In this document: positions 72 through 22,609 of the stretch, one piece after another
Layout of the letters: every line of letters begins with the position of its first letter
How positions within the stretch are numbered: position 1 is the stretch's first letter
Notes under the pieces: model-generated
Database searches by the model: none
Seen by the model: the letters and a program-made list of their open reading frames with translations, nothing else
Told to the model about the DNA's origin: nothing
Program-made: the position numbers and the translations under genes
From: a virus
IMG/VR virus record: IMGVR_UViG_3300027714_000129
Coordinates: 1-22,996 of that record
Direction: 5' to 3' (one strand)
Length of the DNA: 22,996 nucleotides

Positions 72-1367
72 TTATTTCTTTCTACGTTCGTTGTTAGAAT
101 ACTTTTGAGCATAATCCATACTCTTACCACACATATAAGTACCATCTGGCATTAGGTGTTCGAATCCATCAGGACAAGTATCATTAACTCTAACTTCCTC
201 TAACTCTATATCTATCTCCTCCATGTGTTTCTCACAAGGCATATAGTATGTCTCACCTGATTCTAGCTTATGTTCATGAGAACCTTCACAACCTAATAGT
301 TTAGAAACTCTCTCAGCCATCTCCTTAGTAGGGAATAAGATTAACTCATGGTCTAATTTGATATCTTCTTTTGCAACTTCACCAGGATAAGTACCTGATA
401 CACTTGGGTTTGCTTCCATTTCTGATAGTTCACCTAACTGTTTTAGTTTGTTTTTACTCCATCCTAATGCTGCTAAACCTCCCCATAGTAAATAACTAAT
501 GTTACCACAAGCTGTTGAATCGTTTTGTTTATCTCTGTATACTTCTTCAGCACGAGATAAGTAAGAATACATACGTTTGATAGTTTCTAATGAGATTGGT
601 TTACCTTGTGCTAATTGTTGTGCTCTTGCCTTTCCGACAGGTGTTGCACATTTGTTACCACTCTTCTTATTTAAATCTATTCCTTTTTTTGCATTATTCT
701 TAACTCCAATAGGATAATCTGTATAAGATTCCATATCTACTCTTTTACCTTTAGAATATCTTTTATCTTTTTTGATGATTGCTCTAATCTGATTTAAGTA
801 TTGTTCTGATTGTTCTTCTGATAAATCTTCTATGTTTACTTGTTTCTTAGAAGCTTCTACTAACGAATGTTCGAATAAACCTTCGATCGAAAAGCCTTTT
901 ACTTCACCGTTCTTTACATAGTCTTCCCACACGATATCTGAATCTACCTTAAAAGCGCCCATCCAAGTCCCTACTGGTAAATTTAAACCGTAAGAGTTTG
1001 ATTTATCTAACTTGGTAGTCTTTATCCAACTCTCTACTAAAGATACACCAGCTACTCTCTCTTCATGTTCTATGGTAGTTTCACCTTGATATCCTTTCTT
1101 AAGATAGTTTTGTGCTAACTTCTCAATCGTTTCAGGCGAAAAGAACACCTCGTAAGGTTGACCTTCTCCATCAATACGGAGAATTTTTTTGTTTGGAATT
1201 AATACTGGTCCAACTACTAGTCTTTTTTCGTTATCTATTTTTTGGAACTGCATTTTCTCGTTTGCAAACCATACGAAGTTTTCTTCTATGGCAGGTTCTG
1301 ATACTAATGATATGGCAAATACCTCATCTGTTAGTACATCTCCTATAAGTAATTCAAATAATCTCAT
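72..1367 (-). CDS. XkdF-like prohead serine protease with extra C-terminal Cys/His modules
   Basis: This 431-aa protein probably matures the capsid. Residues 48-165 match the XkdF/peptidase S78-like phage protease pattern: VVGPVLIPN near 51-59, a candidate catalytic His in TIEHE (His101), ESWI at 112-115, GTWMGAFKV near 133-141 and a candidate nucleophile Ser in GFSIEG (Ser160). Three modules follow. Residues 213-310 (SYTDYPIGVKNNAKKG onward to SYLLWGGLAALGW) form a segment I associate with Bacteroidota phage head proteins. Residues 352-381 have a GCxGxHxH...MPCxxH arrangement that could bind metal. Residues 399-414 contain CPDGFEHLMPDGTYMCG. The gene lies downstream of the tape measure, more than 12 kb of transcription after the capsid gene, which is unusual. 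Protease assignment is fairly sure; the roles of the added modules are unknown. Confidence 0.8.
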   Translation of the reverse strand: MRLFELLIGDVLTDEVFAISLVSEPAIEENFVWFANEKMQFQKIDNEKRLVVGPVLIPNKKILRIDGEGQPYEVFFSPETIEKLAQNYLKKGYQGETTIEHEERVAGVSLVESWIKTTKLDKSNSYGLNLPVGTWMGAFKVDSDIVWEDYVKNGEVKGFSIEGLFEHSLVEASKKQVNIEDLSEEQSEQYLNQIRAIIKKDKRYSKGKRVDMESYTDYPIGVKNNAKKGIDLNKKSGNKCATPVGKARAQQLAQGKPISLETIKRMYSYLSRAEEVYRDKQNDSTACGNISYLLWGGLAALGWSKNKLKQLGELSEMEANPSVSGTYPGEVAKEDIKLDHELILFPTKEMAERVSKLLGCEGSHEHKLESGETYYMPCEKHMEEIDIELEEVRVNDTCPDGFEHLMPDGTYMCGKSMDYAQKYSNNERRKK

Positions 1368-3811: not shown

Positions 3812-5887
3812 TTAACTTGTTGGTCCTCCACCACCTGTATCACAGAAGTCTACAAGAATTACAATTCCACTACCAACATTTAATTTTAATACATCATTAA
3901 AAGAAGATGCATTATCTACTGCTAAAAATGCTATACCTGTTACAGGATTACTCATAATTGCATTATAGAATATTCTATCACCACTTACTGGATATGTTCC
4001 TGTTCCATCATGATAATATTGGAAGTTTGGATTACCTTGACAAGCCTGTGATAGTGTAGTACCAGGATATCCATTGAATGGAGTACCTTGTACACCTGCT
4101 CCTGTACCAACTGCTCCACTACCACCAATGTATCTTAATGGTGATGATGCGAATGTTGTTTCTACTTTAAACGAACCTTGTGAAAAGAAATTCGTTGTAT
4201 CTGTAAAATAAGATTTAGAGAATTCTCTGTTATTTGTTCTATTAAAATTTTGTGATAGAAAATCTAAATCTAATGTATCACCAAATTCTAAATTCTTAAC
4301 ACCTAAATTATTCGCTGGTGTTACTGTTATCTTTTTATTTAAATCTATAAATCTATCAAACGATACTGTTCTACCTTCTTTATACCAATCATTAAATTGT
4401 TTAATAATAAAATGCCTTGGTTTGGTTTTACTTGGATAGATTTGTAAGTTGTATTTCTTTTGTATACCTTGTATTAAAGATAAGGAAGTAATACCCTTAG
4501 TTGCAAACGGCATATTAAGAGGTACATTCATTATTCTAAAATCAGCAAGGTAGTTTAACTTCTGAACTTTTAAAGTTGATTCAGCGTTACCACCTGGTCC
4601 TATAATCACAAAGGCTCCTGTTACTCCTGTTTGATATTGAAAGAATATTTCAAAATCATAGGTTGAATTTCTGTCCAAGTTAACAGAGAACTTCTGTTCT
4701 AATTCAAATCCTTCTTCACCTGTTCCTGCCTTACCTTGTAATCTTCTACGTATCTGTTCATTCATAAAAGTTAAAGGTACTGGATTAGGATCAGTTCCAC
4801 TTAGTTTTCTTGCCTTTATAAATAGTTCGGGTATACTAACTACTGTATCTGAACCTGTAACTAAGAAGTTTAATGCAAGTTCTATTTCAACAGGTGTAGA
4901 GAAATTACCAGTGATACCTAAATTGTCTGTCATCTTGTAATTAGAACCATTCATTTTTAATGATGGGTCAGATACTACATTTTCAAAATCTAATGATTGA
5001 GATACACCAGCACTTGCTAAAGTATTAGGAACTGATGAACCACTAATAGGTTGTATTACAACTAACCCTTCAGTATTCATATCTAAACCACCATATTGTG
5101 CAAACTTGTTACCGTTATCACATAACATATATTGTGTATCCCATAAATCTCGTTCAAAGAATTCAGATTCAAATGTATACTGAGATTGTGAAAAGATTGC
5201 TTCAACAACTCTCTTTGTTTTTAGCATTGGTTTAAAATCAATTACATTTACAGAACCACCAGTCTCATCTTGATTATTTAAAGAAAAGTTGTTTGCAGAA
5301 GTTGCTGATTGGTATACCCATCCTTGACCGTAATCTCCAATTGGATATACTATATCTCCTACTTCAAATGAACCACTATTGGTTACTTGATCAGGATTAG
5401 TAGGGTTATTACCTAACCATGTTTCTTTAATAATATCAATTGATGCAGTATGATTGTATTTGCTTAATACATCTAAATCAGTTAGAAAGGTTGATTGTAA
5501 ATCTTTAGCGAATGATGATAGTAAACCAAATACTGATACTGTATAAGAATCAATAAACTTGTTTTCTTTTACTACTACATTCTCTAATTGCATATATCCT
5601 TGTGCAACATAGAAACCATCAAAATCAAATTGAGCTATTACCTTTTCATTTGTTTTAAATAAGTAAGGTTCATCAACAGATATATCGTATACGTGTTTAA
5701 AGAAATCATTGTTTCTTTTTGTACCTGGTAGAGTTATCTGACGAGTAAAATCCGAAGGTAACTTACCTATATCAAATAAACCTGTAACGTTATTAGATAA
5801 GAAGATTTCTTCATCATCATATTGGTCTAAGGCTATTCCTTGTGCTATTAATTTAAATACCGAATTTCTTCCGCTTACTACTGACAT
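3812..5887 (-). CDS. Large putative tail tip/baseplate protein, 691 aa
   Basis: This is a large, mostly beta-type protein. The N-terminus has SNNVTGLFDIGKLPSDFTR followed by QITLPGTKRNNDFFKH, a block I associate with a tail protein widespread in Bacteroidota phages, possibly a distal-tail or hub component. The middle (about 150-330) carries Ser/Gly/Thr-rich loops; about 430-560 includes NVPLNMPFATKGITSLSLIQ and DFLSQNFNRTNN-type segments. The last 100 residues are Gly/Pro-rich and end in DFCDTGGGGPTS. It lies between the 406-aa tail protein and the 179-aa tail protein, all in the same direction with gaps of about 15 bases. Structural tail assignment is good; the precise position in the tail is inferred. 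Confidence 0.65.
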   Translation of the reverse strand: MSVVSGRNSVFKLIAQGIALDQYDDEEIFLSNNVTGLFDIGKLPSDFTRQITLPGTKRNNDFFKHVYDISVDEPYLFKTNEKVIAQFDFDGFYVAQGYMQLENVVVKENKFIDSYTVSVFGLLSSFAKDLQSTFLTDLDVLSKYNHTASIDIIKETWLGNNPTNPDQVTNSGSFEVGDIVYPIGDYGQGWVYQSATSANNFSLNNQDETGGSVNVIDFKPMLKTKRVVEAIFSQSQYTFESEFFERDLWDTQYMLCDNGNKFAQYGGLDMNTEGLVVIQPISGSSVPNTLASAGVSQSLDFENVVSDPSLKMNGSNYKMTDNLGITGNFSTPVEIELALNFLVTGSDTVVSIPELFIKARKLSGTDPNPVPLTFMNEQIRRRLQGKAGTGEEGFELEQKFSVNLDRNSTYDFEIFFQYQTGVTGAFVIIGPGGNAESTLKVQKLNYLADFRIMNVPLNMPFATKGITSLSLIQGIQKKYNLQIYPSKTKPRHFIIKQFNDWYKEGRTVSFDRFIDLNKKITVTPANNLGVKNLEFGDTLDLDFLSQNFNRTNNREFSKSYFTDTTNFFSQGSFKVETTFASSPLRYIGGSGAVGTGAGVQGTPFNGYPGTTLSQACQGNPNFQYYHDGTGTYPVSGDRIFYNAIMSNPVTGIAFLAVDNASSFNDVLKLNVGSGIVILVDFCDTGGGGPTS

Positions 5888-16930: not shown

Positions 16931-19237
16931 TTATACGAATTTTCTTGTTGAAACTACTAATATCTCACTATTGGTAAACGTCATTAAAGTTACTACATCT
17001 ATTGCTCCTAATGTTGTTGAAGCTACATATGCTGAACCATCTGGTTGTTTGAAATCATTACTGAAGGTTACTGTACCTAATGTTGAAGCATTCTGTATAA
17101 CTTTAACTACTATCGTCATTCCAGCTTCAACGTTAGATGCTATGAAGTTGTTTGTTTGACCAGCGGCTAAAGTTACTGTTTGTACTCCACTCTTTGAAAA
17201 ATCAACTAACATCTGGTATGATGCATCAGGTGATAATGAAGTTACTGCAGTTACAACTGATTTATCTATGATTACTTTTTCATAGAAGTGTGAAGGTTTT
17301 AAGAAAGCTATTCTGTTATCAGTATAAGCTCCCATCTTTTGGAATCCTATAACTGAATCATATGGATAACCACTTGTTGCGTTATTTACAATAGAAGGTC
17401 CATCCCAACCAGTACCTAAACCAGTCGAACCATTTAAACCAAATCCAAACTCTTGTTCACTAACTGAATCATATACAGTATGGTATCCATCAAAGTTACC
17501 ACTCATGAAAGCTATTTTAGTTCCATTTCGTGTACTACTGATGTTCGTTGTAGCCATTACGGTTTTTCTACCTCCACCACTAGCAGTTCCTTGTACTGTT
17601 ATTGTACTTCCATTACCTCCATCTGCAAGAACTATATCTCCATTGATTGTTGGTATGTTGTTAGTACCTAATAAGTTTTGTGTGATACCTTCTGCGAAAG
17701 AGTTACTACCACTAAAGATATTGTTACCAGTTAGAAGGTTGTTACCACTTATAGTATTAGCACCACTCTTTGTTACTACTTGGTTGTAGTTTGTTGTTGC
17801 TGTAACATCTACTTGTGATGAACCACTTACTGTTCCTGCAGGAAGTACTACTTGAGCCGAACCACTTATAATACCTGCTGGTATATTTGATATAGCTGGA
17901 TAGTTAACTTGAGAAGAACCAGATACTGTACCACTTGGTAACTCAGTAACAACAGAACCACTAACAAGACCCGCAGGTATGTTAGATAGTCCCGGAAATG
18001 ATACTTGTGAAGAACCACTAATCATACCACTAAACTGAGTAGCTGTTAGTATTCCACTTACTGCTGTATTTGAACCAAGAGTTATCTGTGTTCCTGTATC
18101 TGTAATATTAGAATCATTCAAGTGATGTCCACCTGTACCCTTTAGTACTTTATTACTTGCGTTATATGTAGGTGAACCAATTGAAGTATATTCAGGTCCG
18201 AATAAGGATACTCCAAATTCAGCCGTTCCTCCTACTTCTTTTTCAAAGAACCAATCATTAGTACTACCATCAAATTGAAATGATGCAGTTGTTGGTGATG
18301 CTGAACCACTATCTTGTACTTTAATACCGGCAAACCTTTGTAAAGGTGTATCGTTATTTAAGATGATGAATGCATCTCCTACTATCTTAGCAGAACCTGT
18401 AACTGATTGTATATATGCAAATGAACCTGTTCCGTTAACTTGTATATCGTTAAACGTTTGGTCACCACTAAAGTTGTTGTTTACATTTGTTCTAGCAACA
18501 GAACCTGTTACCATTGTATTGTTTATGGTTGTTACTCCACTTACTGTATTTGCTCCTATATCTGTACCACCTACTATTTCTTTAATAACTGAACCACTAA
18601 CTAAACCACTTGGTATATTAGTAATCTGAGGATAATCTACTTGAGATGAACCTGATACTACACCACTTGGTAAGTTAGATGCTATAGAACCACTTAAGAT
18701 TCCAGCTGGTATGTTATCTATTTCTGGATAAGATATTTGTGAAGAACCTGAAACTAAGAATGGTGGTTTATTAGTTACACCACTAAAAGGTACTGAATCA
18801 GCTACTGCTGATACAGATGATGATACTGAATTATTTACATTATTAATAGTTGTTGTAAATGTAGCTCCATTACCTCTTTCGTAAGTTGTTGTTGCATTAT
18901 CATTATTAGAAGCATCTTTTAATAAAGAACCAGTATCAATGGCTGCACTATCTGCTATGTTAACATTAAATGTAGTACCATCACCTTTAGTAAAGGTCAT
19001 GTTCCTTGTTCCTTCAGAGAATGATGCAGTTGTTAATAGAGAACCTGAGGCTCCTGCTTCTGCAATCTTGGAGTTCCAACTACCACTATCTATATTGTAT
19101 CCTATTTCATCTACAAGTGAATCTATAATGTCTCCATTAAAATCTCTTAAGATGGTTGGGGTTATGGCCTGTGTGTTGTTATTTGGGAAGGATGAATTAT
19201 TACCACTTCTTAATTGACCCTTTGTTAATTCACTCAT
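16931..19237 (-). CDS. Large tail fibre protein with SGSSQ repeats, 768 aa
   Basis: The N-terminus (MSELTKGQLRSGNNSSFPNN) may anchor to the virion. Residues 60-140 contain two copies of a motif with GDGTTFNVNI and GNGATFTTTI. Residues 162-219 and 406-476 carry tandem units of about 24-28 residues with SGSSQvxYPxixNIPxGlxSGS, typical of fibre shafts in marine phages. In between, about 285-400 looks like a globular insert with DSGSASPTTASFQFDGSTND. The C-terminal 90 residues (VTLAAGQTNNFIASNVEAG, then GTVTFSNDF) form a beta domain also seen at the end of the 434-aa fibre. It lies between a small Cys-containing gene and the LamG-like gene. A receptor-binding fibre is the likely role. Confidence 0.7.
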   Translation of the reverse strand: MSELTKGQLRSGNNSSFPNNNTQAITPTILRDFNGDIIDSLVDEIGYNIDSGSWNSKIAEAGASGSLLTTASFSEGTRNMTFTKGDGTTFNVNIADSAAIDTGSLLKDASNNDNATTTYERGNGATFTTTINNVNNSVSSSVSAVADSVPFSGVTNKPPFLVSGSSQISYPEIDNIPAGILSGSIASNLPSGVVSGSSQVDYPQITNIPSGLVSGSVIKEIVGGTDIGANTVSGVTTINNTMVTGSVARTNVNNNFSGDQTFNDIQVNGTGSFAYIQSVTGSAKIVGDAFIILNNDTPLQRFAGIKVQDSGSASPTTASFQFDGSTNDWFFEKEVGGTAEFGVSLFGPEYTSIGSPTYNASNKVLKGTGGHHLNDSNITDTGTQITLGSNTAVSGILTATQFSGMISGSSQVSFPGLSNIPAGLVSGSVVTELPSGTVSGSSQVNYPAISNIPAGIISGSAQVVLPAGTVSGSSQVDVTATTNYNQVVTKSGANTISGNNLLTGNNIFSGSNSFAEGITQNLLGTNNIPTINGDIVLADGGNGSTITVQGTASGGGRKTVMATTNISSTRNGTKIAFMSGNFDGYHTVYDSVSEQEFGFGLNGSTGLGTGWDGPSIVNNATSGYPYDSVIGFQKMGAYTDNRIAFLKPSHFYEKVIIDKSVVTAVTSLSPDASYQMLVDFSKSGVQTVTLAAGQTNNFIASNVEAGMTIVVKVIQNASTLGTVTFSNDFKQPDGSAYVASTTLGAIDVVTLMTFTNSEILVVSTRKFV

Positions 19238-19514: not shown

Positions 19515-19527
19515 TATAACAAACCTA
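19515..19527 (-). promoter_or_regulatory. Candidate promoter element TAGGTTTGTTATA
   Basis: On the minus strand TAGGTTTG matches the Bacteroidota -7 pattern TAnnTTTG exactly and runs into TTGTTATA, shared by other gaps here. It lies 13 bases before the ATG at 19501, and its TAG is also the stop codon of the -1-frame chaperone ORF. No clear -33 TTG is seen at the expected distance, so the call is tentative. Confidence 0.4.
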
Positions 19528-19842
19528 TTTGTTTTTATATTTAGAGAGCATCTGTTTATGTAGCAGTTGTTCTAATTGTGCTTTATCTTGTGTATATGCA
19601 AGGTAAAGTAAACATTCTTCTAAACCTCGTTCAAGTACTTCATCAAACTTCGTTATATCTTTGTTTGCAAGTTGGACAATGCTTGTATAGCCTCTCCACT
19701 TTCTGCTAAAATTTTGTTCATGCTGTCCGGAATCTCCCCCGTTGCTTTCAAAGAGCTCTGGATACCTTGGAGTAAGTCCTTGTAGATACGAGTGAAGAAA
19801 AAAAAACAACCAAAATGAAAGTCCATTGTAACATCTAACCAT
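19525..19842 (-). CDS. -1-frame extension of the tail-assembly chaperone (GT-type fusion partner)
   Basis: This frame is open from 19842 to TAG at 19525, overlapping the 217-aa ORF by 190 bases. Its last 50 residues (TKFDEVLERGLEECLLYLAY, then TQDKAQLEQLLHKQM) look like a true helical protein end and recall chaperone C-termini of related phages. No start codon lies between the T9 run and that end, and the ATG at 19842 is inside the other gene. The part after the slip is therefore probably made as a 260-aa fusion (170 residues of frame 0 plus 90 of this frame). The overlap region is less protein-like in this frame, so the exact slip point is open. Confidence 0.55.
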   Translation of the reverse strand: MVRCYNGLSFWLFFFLHSYLQGLTPRYPELFESNGGDSGQHEQNFSRKWRGYTSIVQLANKDITKFDEVLERGLEECLLYLAYTQDKAQLEQLLHKQMLSKYKNK

Positions 19843-20306
19843 TTATCTTCTTCCCATGGTTCAGCTCCTTTGTATTTCTCTATCTCATATAGTACTCCTG
19901 CTACTGTATTTGTAATAGGTCTAAATAAGATATTACATACTTGAGGCCAATTCTTATCTAAAGTAATTTCATCAAACTTAGTTATATCTAAATAAGCACC
20001 GTATGGCATCTCTGCTAAGTTAGGTTCGAATCCATACTTAATACCATCGATTGTTTTAAACCTTTGTAACTCATAATCAGTCTTACTCATTAACTTGTTT
20101 AAATCTTCTCTAATAGCTGATAGTGTAGTTGAATCTAAAGTAGATATAAGTTGAGGTGTTAACCCACATAGGTTATATATTAAGAACGCATCTTGTGCAT
20201 CCTCTTCACCTTCATAGTTACTTAAATCCTTTTGTACTTTTAAATACTGTCTTAATGTTATTGCTGAATAATCATTAGGTACTTTTATTTCTACTGCCTT
20301 TTTCAT
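19653..20306 (-). CDS. Putative tail-assembly chaperone, 217 aa
   Basis: The protein begins MKKAVEIKVPNDYSAITLRQ and is mostly helical. The segments GIKYGFEPNLAEMPYGAYLD, NILFRPITNT and GVLYEIEKYKGAEPW match my recollection of a Bacteroidota phage family thought to be tail-assembly chaperones. In such genes a short and a long form are made by frameshifting, as with lambda G and GT. Here codons 167-170 (TGT TTT TTT TTC) contain nine T, giving an in-frame T TTT TTT heptamer. Frame 0 continues 47 codons to ATATAA. The start overlaps the coiled-coil stop by four bases (ATGA). Its place next to the terminase, far from the tape measure, is unusual. Confidence 0.6.
   Translation of the reverse strand: MKKAVEIKVPNDYSAITLRQYLKVQKDLSNYEGEEDAQDAFLIYNLCGLTPQLISTLDSTTLSAIREDLNKLMSKTDYELQRFKTIDGIKYGFEPNLAEMPYGAYLDITKFDEITLDKNWPQVCNILFRPITNTVAGVLYEIEKYKGAEPWEEDKWLDVTMDFHFGCFFFFTRIYKDLLQGIQSSLKATGEIPDSMNKILAESGEAIQALSNLQTKI
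19798..19806 (-). other. T9 slippery run for -1 frameshifting
   Basis: Nine T on the minus strand give the heptamer T TTT TTT in phase with the 217-aa ORF (third base of codon 167 to codon 169). A -1 slip leads into the open frame that ends at 19525. Transcriptional slippage on the homopolymer is an alternative mechanism. Confidence 0.6.
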
Positions 20307-20701: not shown

Positions 20702-21865
20702 TTAATTAAATTTTAAATGATATTTTCCTTTGTTCTGCATTCTAACAGATAACCTACTCATTGCTAAGTATCTAAGTGCATCGATACAATGGTCGTTGAA
20801 CCCTTGTGGTTTATCTAATACAGTTCCGTTCTTATCTGTTGCATACTCATAACCATAGAGTTCATCTATTAGGTGAGTACTCTTCTTATCTACTACTAAT
20901 CCAAAGTTATTAAGAACTGAGATACCAAACTTAATTGAATCAGGTCCTTTCTTAACTCCTTTAGCATTAAATCCACTTCTGTGAATCTCTTCTATTAGTC
21001 TTGGTTCTGCACTATCACACCATATCTCATCTGTTTTACCAACGTTAAGTGATTCTAACTTACGTACTATATCTTGTGTAGTTAAACCTCTCTCATACAT
21101 TAGTTCTCTTATATACAACATATCATGATGTTTGTGAACAGCTATTAAAGTCGTTGGATCTTGTGAGAACCCAAAGTCCATTCCAAATCCAATTAGCTCA
21201 TGTGTTGGCATATCTTCTAATATTTGGAAGTTACCAAACACTGCCTTTTCATTAGGAGCATATTCACCTAATCCATATATCTTATAGTACTTAGGATTCT
21301 TAAGTTCTAAATCTTGTATTCCTTTAACCATCTCTTCTGGCAAGTATGGGTTGTCCTTATACGTTGTATTGTACGTTTGAACATCATCCATATTTCTTAA
21401 CCAATGGTAAGGACTTATAGTTGGGTTGTAAGCTAATATAATCTCACCACTTGTACGAATAGATAATTGAAAGTAAGCTTCTTCGTGTTGTTCGGAGGCT
21501 TCATCTATAAATAGAATATCTGATTTAACACCTCTTAATTTCTCTGCATCATCTGTATTAACAAAACTAAGTAAAGAGCCGTTAGAGAACTCGTATACCC
21601 TATCAGAGATGTTATATGACTCGTTACTCCATATAGTTAAGTTAGTTAGTATCTCTTTAAAGTCTTTTATCAAAGTTCTTTTAAGTGAGGGTACTGTTCT
21701 TCTTACTACTGTTATGTTTTGTGGTTCTTGTAATGCCTTAACTATTAGATACTGTAAGATAGCATACGTCTTACCTGAACGAGTACCACCTACATGGTGT
21801 GTAATCCTTTTAGATGAAGATAGTAAATTATCAAACGTTACTGTTGTATCTATTGTAAGTTCCAT
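20702..21865 (-). CDS. terL: Terminase large subunit
   Basis: This 387-aa motor packages DNA into the prohead and cuts the concatemer. The ATPase domain has Walker A GGTRSGKT at 26-33, an adenine-side RRTVPSLKRT region at 55-64 and Walker B ILFIDEASE at 117-125. A coupling-motif candidate lies at 144-148 (LAYNP). The RNase H-like nuclease domain has MDFGFSQDPT near 229-238 (Asp230), WCDSAEPRLIEEI (Asp284) and NDHCIDALRY near 358-366 (Asp359, Asp362). The order and length fit PBSX/Terminase_3-type proteins. The start overlaps the cytidylyltransferase stop by 16 bases. All key motifs appear intact. Confidence 0.93.
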   Translation of the reverse strand: MELTIDTTVTFDNLLSSSKRITHHVGGTRSGKTYAILQYLIVKALQEPQNITVVRRTVPSLKRTLIKDFKEILTNLTIWSNESYNISDRVYEFSNGSLLSFVNTDDAEKLRGVKSDILFIDEASEQHEEAYFQLSIRTSGEIILAYNPTISPYHWLRNMDDVQTYNTTYKDNPYLPEEMVKGIQDLELKNPKYYKIYGLGEYAPNEKAVFGNFQILEDMPTHELIGFGMDFGFSQDPTTLIAVHKHHDMLYIRELMYERGLTTQDIVRKLESLNVGKTDEIWCDSAEPRLIEEIHRSGFNAKGVKKGPDSIKFGISVLNNFGLVVDKKSTHLIDELYGYEYATDKNGTVLDKPQGFNDHCIDALRYLAMSRLSVRMQNKGKYHLKFN

Positions 21866-22308
21866 GATAGACGTTTAGCTGTTTTGTTATGTAAGTTAGT
21901 TTGTTCTGTAATGGAGTCTTTTAATGATGTAGTACTCCAACCATGTGCTCTACTTGCATAGATTACTTTAGGAGGAAACGAAACATCATCACCTGTAAAT
22001 CTTTTACCGATATAATCATCACCTAAGATTCTGATATCAGGCTTAAACATTATAATGAGTTCTCTGAGTTCTTCTTCTGTTTGATATACAAATACCTCAT
22101 CAACGTACTGAATAGCCATTAGAGTTCTATAACGTTCGTATACGGGTATTACAGGCTTCATTTTAGATTTCCTATCTAACGATGGGTCATCTTGAAGAAA
22201 TACTATGAAGTGATTACAATGTTTCTTTGCATCTTCAAATGTATATATGTAACCAGGATGTATTATATCAAAGTTACCTGCTGTAAAACCTACTATCTTT
22301 TTATCCAT
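21850..22308 (-). CDS. Cytidylyltransferase-like nucleotidyltransferase inside the terminase operon
   Basis: This 152-aa protein matches the glycerol-3-phosphate/RfaE-type cytidylyltransferase superfamily, which joins CTP to a phosphorylated substrate. The N-terminal nucleotide-binding segment is GFTAGNFDIIHPGYIYTFED (7-26), in which the usual HxGH reads HPGY (His17, Tyr20). DRKSKMKPVIPVYERYR (45-61) and ILGDDYIGKRFTGDD (94-108) follow, then the C-terminal HGWSTTSLK (122-130) that parallels the ISTTxLK/R motif. Length is typical for a one-domain enzyme. It lies between small and large terminase genes, overlapping both (8 and 16 bases). The substrate is unknown; a loss of the second His could alter activity. 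Phage relatives with this layout of motifs are known to me from marine phages. Confidence 0.75.
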   Translation of the reverse strand: MDKKIVGFTAGNFDIIHPGYIYTFEDAKKHCNHFIVFLQDDPSLDRKSKMKPVIPVYERYRTLMAIQYVDEVFVYQTEEELRELIIMFKPDIRILGDDYIGKRFTGDDVSFPPKVIYASRAHGWSTTSLKDSITEQTNLHNKTAKRLSWNLQ

Positions 22309-22609
22309 TTACTTCTTCTTCTTTAGAACCTGATTTGTTTATGTTAACTGTTATCTGATGTATTCTTTGTTCTATCTCTCCTTTTAGCTCTACCCTTGAT
22401 TGTTTAGGTAAGTGAAATTCTAATAGTTTTAAGGCAATATCAATAGCTCCTTTAGGGTCTTTCTCTTTCATTTCCTTTAACAGAGTAGGTAAATCATCCA
22501 ACACCGAATTAGTTGCTCTGGCGATTGACAACTTCATCATTTCAGTTGAACGATTTACTGTTCCCTTAGGTCTTCCTAATCCTAATGTGTTTCCTGGTTT
22601 AAATGGCAT
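22301..22609 (-). CDS. Putative terminase small subunit, 102 aa
   Basis: The N-terminus MPFKPGNTLGLGRPKGTVNR matches the short basic FKPGNxxGRPKG motif seen in DUF5681-like and small-terminase-like phage proteins; GRPKG also resembles an AT-hook core that can touch DNA minor grooves. A helical middle (EMMKLSIARATNSVLDDLPT) and an amphipathic end (AIDIALKLLEFHL) follow, suiting an oligomeric DNA-binding protein. Position two genes before the large terminase supports the role of recognising packaging sites. The 68-bp gap upstream is AT-rich and has a TTGTTATA element 28 bases before the ATG, so this gene may start a packaging transcript. The assignment depends mainly on context. Confidence 0.6.
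   Translation of the reverse strand: MPFKPGNTLGLGRPKGTVNRSTEMMKLSIARATNSVLDDLPTLLKEMKEKDPKGAIDIALKLLEFHLPKQSRVELKGEIEQRIHQITVNINKSGSKEEEVNG

Follow-up and report, generated by a model that had tools for sequence, protein, structure and literature searches.

A putative HPGY-type nucleotidyltransferase gene at the terS/terL junction of a virus contig

The genes for the small and large terminase subunits of virus record IMGVR_UViG_3300027714_000129 are separated by a gene for a putative nucleotidyltransferase (NT), in which HPGY stands in place of HxGH, the signature motif of the nucleotidyltransferase superfamily. Two questions arise at this locus: does the position of the gene reflect a role in DNA packaging, and what activity could be expected of an enzyme that carries a tyrosine for its second histidine? 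Both are addressed here for the window, that is, the whole stretch of DNA analysed (positions 1 to 22,996 of the record), and for its relatives.

The gene, its neighbours and its predicted fold

The NT open reading frame (ORF) is real, starts with ATG and overlaps both neighbouring genes:

22301-22609, minus strand: terS-like gene (102 aa), upstream of NT, whose last 8 nt overlap the NT start
21850-22308, minus strand: HPGY-type CTP_transf_like nucleotidyltransferase (NT) gene (152 aa), named from its PF01467 match, AlphaFold2 model and best PDB match, 1coz TagD
20702-21865, minus strand: terL, large terminase gene (387 aa), whose first 16 nt overlap the end of NT

Both overlaps had been noticed in a preliminary description of the sequence and are borne out, the 8 nt shared by terS and NT reading ATGGATAA. 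The same description took the gene to be translated with the packaging proteins; the overlaps make co-translation plausible, which is as far as that claim can be carried. The assignment of TerL is secure, with a profile match to PF04466 at 4.6e-25 and 119.8 bits against TIGR01547 (cut-off 105). The gene upstream of NT is called terS for its position, its small size and the fact that it is linked to terL in 92 loci. The PHROG matches of the terS-like protein are solely to families of unknown function, phrog_8771 and phrog_15261, which, given this linkage, are probably small terminases.

NT matches PF01467 (CTP_transf_like) with an E-value of 2.5e-14 and 54.1 bits (gathering score 21), far above chance, which upholds the identity first proposed for it. 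The (H/T)xGH motif of that family is broken by Tyr20 in place of the second histidine; the profile match and the predicted fold still put the protein in the PF01467 superfamily. The structure prediction proposed in the preliminary description gave an AlphaFold2 model (from 43 sequences) with a pLDDT of 91.7 and an alpha/beta nucleotidyltransferase fold. Its best PDB matches in Foldseek are TagD 1coz (E 1.2e-8), 2b7l, 3glv and HldC 5xf2, all nucleotidyltransferases of the PF01467 superfamily among the matches listed.

Two known enzymes are thus the natural points of comparison. TagD, the CTP:glycerol-3-phosphate cytidylyltransferase of structure 1coz, shares with NT the fold (TM 0.86 by target), the size, the lysine loop and the STT loop, but it carries HxGH where NT has HPGY, the two are 30% identical, and NT scores 61 bits against TIGR01518, whose equivalog cut-off is 165.4. 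HldE-C/HldC, the heptose-1-phosphate adenylyltransferase of structure 5xf2, is favoured by the best PHROG match (phrog_7878, heptose nucleotidyltransferase-like, 2.8e-30) and by the best NCBIfam score (TIGR02199, 72.9 bits, below the equivalog-domain cut-off of 181.5), and some HPGY relatives lie in GmhA/HddA-like cassettes; NT differs from it by Tyr for the second His and by Trp124 at the STTR5 position described below.

The terS/terL junction as an insertion slot

A conserved gene of the packaging module would be expected to stay in the terS/terL junction of related phages, and NT is not found there. Scans for TerL and TerS gave 92 loci with both genes on about 88 contigs (a few contigs occurring twice), and NT lies between the two in none of them (0/92), so that its position is unique to this contig among all the loci found. 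The terminase genes abut or overlap in 84 of the 92 loci, while the other eight hold other cargo, including GIY-YIG-like ORFs in L084, L098, L112, L113 and L137, with weak Pfam scores throughout, and an HNH_3 gene in L138. NT and the other cargo alike start at the terS stop and finish at the terL start. The cargo of the eight also includes a second metabolic type, a GNAT acetyltransferase gene, in the slot of L097 (4281-4682, tested) and of L107 (3980-4381, by likeness).

Elsewhere on contigs with terS and terL, NT was found in none of the 23 searched whole, all of which are fragments. Its kin at 70-81% identity stand in loci without this phage's TerS and TerL, and the PF04466 terminase is absent from 22 of the NT-bearing contigs or genomes searched whole; in loci of the L026 and L027 type, NT lies two genes upstream of a T4-type TerL, in a different phage. 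Because NT is absent from the 92 related loci and the slot holds other cargo in eight of them, the link to packaging is one of insertion slot and not of conserved function. A packaging-linked role was rejected on this survey; the functional tie to packaging, or binding-only role there, that the preliminary description had entertained is thus not upheld, and the comparison with other phages that it had proposed points to a passing cargo gene. A place inside a packaging operon can reflect an insertion slot rather than function.

Homing-endonuclease genes have been reported to cluster close to terminase genes (PMC10448857), and the relatives of this phage resemble that pattern in that the same slot holds GIY-YIG-like and HNH genes; the present case differs in that the cargo is a metabolic enzyme with no accompanying nuclease. 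One phage in which 15 ORFs separate terS from terL has been described as unusual (PMC10269572). It appears likely that the NT gene was acquired horizontally and would have landed seamlessly in a junction that most relatives leave empty and that some fill with genes of homing-endonuclease type or with an acetyltransferase gene.

HPGY as a clade trait

The motifs of NT are distributed as follows, with conservation taken from an alignment of 43 homologues in which 28 residues of NT are invariant:

22249-22260, minus strand: HPGY, residues 17-20, replacing HxGH; the Tyr20 codon is TAC
22153-22176, minus strand: DRKSKMKP, residues 45-52, lysine loop; K49 and P52 invariant; aligns with the TagD lysine stretch
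22012-22023, minus strand: GDDY, residues 96-99; G96, D98 and Y99 invariant
21919-21951, minus strand: RAHGWSTTSLK, residues 120-130, STT loop; R120, H122, S125-T127 and K130 invariant

The substitution in H17-P-G-Y20 and the retention of DRKSKMKP (D45-P52) and WSTTSLK (W124-K130, intact) are as first described. NT lacks the STTR5 motif of promiscuous heptose nucleotidyltransferases (HENases), defined as (F/L)xxGRSTT with Arg in the fifth place (PMC11461863, PMC11573728), since its RAHGWSTT has Trp124 there, and the motifs decide nothing about NTP preference.

HPGY was found in all 41 loci of a first viral scan and in all 80 loci kept by a second, these being the best-scoring 80 of 557 confirmed relatives. 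The second scan used an alignment query and patterns that stopped at the first His or covered other positions, thereby excluding Tyr20; the two scans have many contigs in common. Across 81 distinct sequences the tyrosine is encoded by TAT in 45 and by TAC in 36, which indicates that it is maintained while the DNA varies. In a tree of 50 rows, a branch with support 99/96 separates the 31 Tyr rows from all others, corresponding to a single H/Y change; the tree included the Tyr column, a small circularity, and several HxGH rows sit on long branches. NT kin occur in unrelated phages and in some cells; the scan of cellular genome contigs used an HPGY-containing pattern, so its matches are uninformative on the H/Y frequency in cells. 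Known-phage relatives mostly carry HxGH, and HPGY is found in SynMITS9220M01 and in a 595-kb uncultured phage. Decay of this one copy is ruled out as the origin of HPGY by its clade-wide fixation. On the sequences compared, HPGY is an ordinary, fixed trait of a large and distinct nucleotidyltransferase clade. The preliminary description had treated many active HPGY homologues as what would make the change ordinary: the motif is indeed common to all close viral relatives inspected, whereas our literature search, which covered few subscription journals, found neither an assay of any HPGY enzyme nor a paper that links HPGY or HxGY to these enzymes.

The phage HxGH cousins (Vibrio pv27, Acinetobacter Ab1-TPeters, Roseobacter CRP-6 and Caulobacter Cr30), at 38-47% identity, have in common with NT an R-x-H that precedes the STT loop and a D/E-R...K-x-x-P pattern, but they keep HxGH and have Arg where the HPGY clade has Lys130. 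The columns that separate the HPGY and HxGH groups are P18, I21, F24, H30 and K130 (Lys for Arg). Neither of two candidates for compensation of Tyr20 was retained: TagD combines HxGH with Lys at the place of K130, which therefore offers no clear compensation, and H122 is also present in the HxGH cousins. Replacement of the second His by Ala leaves NadD with 0.62% activity (PMC1249556), and loss of the second His of CaFADS, thought to help place phosphates and stabilise the transition state, abolishes FMNAT activity (PMC3509593), so that Tyr may alter or weaken catalysis. A clade with a fixed Tyr, the other motifs kept and fusions to three kinds of sugar-pathway enzyme offers a clean test of the role of the second His, and it would represent an activity common in environmental phages.

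Two arrangements of HPGY genes were also observed. One phage (L226) carries two HPGY nucleotidyltransferase genes, at 3977-4450 and 4731-5165, one gene apart and 47% and 69% identical to the window's NT. In Gammaproteobacterial MAGs (L238 and L239, around 4000), a standalone HPGY gene directly follows a LapB-like TPR gene.

Sugar-gene context, proposed activity and host

No sugar-nucleotide or glycosyltransferase gene was detected in this 23-kb contig, and the evidence on substrate is provided by relatives. Within the subclade to which the window's NT belongs, genes for NAD epimerases, RmlC- and RmlD-like proteins and glycosyltransferases are often found next to NT, and in the nearest relative, L001, the genes after NT encode a GT2-like protein and a mannose-6-P isomerase cupin. 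Sugar-nucleotide or glycosyltransferase genes lie within 3 kb of 28 of the 47 HPGY representatives (19 have none nearby) and of none of 96 terminase loci, although the neighbour queries were taken from HPGY loci, so that this control concerns phage type and is not an independent null.

More distant HPGY relatives are fused proteins, mostly beside NAD-epimerases. A small HAD-like domain is joined to NT in SynMITS9220M01 (P0001), L140, L240, L242 and L243, this reading being by sequence likeness in L240, L242 and L243 and from a weak Pfam match in P0001 (E 8e-4, below cut-off); a GmhA-like SIS domain is joined to it in L241 and an HddA-like GHMP kinase in L142. The neighbours of the fusion type (GHMP kinase, GmhA-like isomerase, NAD epimerase) all score below equivalog cut-offs, which makes "heptose" a lead and not proof. 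Such isomerase, kinase and phosphatase company belongs to some HPGY relatives (L140, L240-L243 and L142), and none was seen in the window. In L240 and L039, a separate HxGH-type paralogue (HPGH or HRGH) stands beside the HPGY gene; HPGY enzymes are thus apparently not mere HldE duplicates, hinting at a substrate different from that of HldE.

Altogether, the best explanation, which we regard as probable, is that NT is horizontally acquired cargo encoding an active sugar-1-phosphate (heptose-like) nucleotidyltransferase that acts on surface glycans; a sugar or glycan role had been a leading option from the start, and the genomic context of relatives supports it. The course of action that we infer is as follows. 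The product would be a compact nucleotidyltransferase with an alpha/beta fold, akin to TagD and HldE-C, from a distinct HPGY clade. The NTP would be held by H17 together with the lysine and STT loops, and the Tyr20 hydroxyl would make the phosphate contact that the second His otherwise provides. The phosphate of a heptose-like sugar-1-phosphate would attack the alpha-phosphate of the NTP, yielding NDP-sugar and PPi, and the NDP-sugar may then feed host (or phage-redirected) glycosyltransferases, so that the surface glycan would be altered during infection. A bolder proposal, tentative and rather unlikely, is that Tyr20 sets the HPGY clade apart as a distinct enzyme family, either by changing its chemistry or by giving it a new substrate. 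Examples would be a sugar phosphate outside the HldE/TagD range or nucleotidylation of the Tyr itself, and phages and some marine cells would have spread the family for use on surface glycans.

The enzyme could instead be an active cytidylyltransferase for glycerol-3-phosphate, or for another polyol or amino-alcohol phosphate, making CDP-glycerol-type precursors as TagD does. This reading draws on the first place of TagD among the PDB matches and on the GCT/TagD annotation that several phage relatives carry; those of Roseobacter phage CRP-6 and of Arctic vOTUs have been described likewise (PMC6918029, PMC11515562), yet these annotations are by similarity only, the TIGR01518 score lies far below its cut-off, and the fusions and neighbours of HPGY genes (GmhA-, HddA- and HAD-like proteins with NAD-epimerases) act on sugars. 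No teichoic-acid genes were noticed near NT kin, and this reading appears improbable. An active enzyme of nucleotide or DNA-modification metabolism, and not of surface glycans, seems still less probable: thymidylate synthase and NUDIX hydrolase-like genes lie near NT in HPGY loci of the L003-L024 type (by eye), and HxGH cousins lie near thymidylate synthase (CRP-6) or deoxyuridylate hydroxymethyltransferase (Agathobaculum phage), but in HPGY loci those genes are several genes off, and the tight links and fusions involve sugar genes.

The near-fatal loss of the second His in NadD and CaFADS would also fit a pseudoenzyme, in which HPGY ends catalysis and leaves nucleotide or partner binding, possibly near packaging. 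We consider this very unlikely, since the other motifs are invariant, the fusions join three kinds of pathway enzyme and no packaging link is conserved. That an assembly chimera has placed NT falsely between terS and terL is less likely still. The junctions occur in this contig only and their exact patterns were unmatched (near-identical records may escape the scans), but each end of NT shows a clean overlap of reading frames, as is also the case in relatives that hold other cargo, and the composition of NT (GC 32.9%, GC3 22.9%) matches that of terS (34.3% and 24.3%) and terL (33.3% and 24.5%).

In the Agathobaculum phage (L143, 1314-4500), a HAD-like gene, an HxGH nucleotidyltransferase gene and the deoxyuridylate hydroxymethyltransferase gene stand close together, possibly as a DNA hypermodification cluster.

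As to the host, the closest matches are Flavobacterium phages for TerL (38.5%) and Nonlabens phages P12024S/L for the portal protein (36.9%), which makes a Flavobacteriia host likely; the relatives suggest that the window is of marine origin. Among its other genes, two ORFs on the minus strand (19525-19842 and 19653-20306) overlap in different frames, an arrangement that would fit programmed frameshifting as in tail chaperones, and the upstream ORF of the pair has weak tail and tail-assembly-chaperone matches (phrog_166, PF10109). The 768-aa protein encoded at 16931-19237 (minus strand) consists in part of repeated SGSSQV.YP.I.NIP.G-like units, has no PHROG match and is perhaps a tail fibre or adhesin. 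At 72-1367 (minus strand), an XkdF-like protease is joined to a C-terminal region matching DUF3721.
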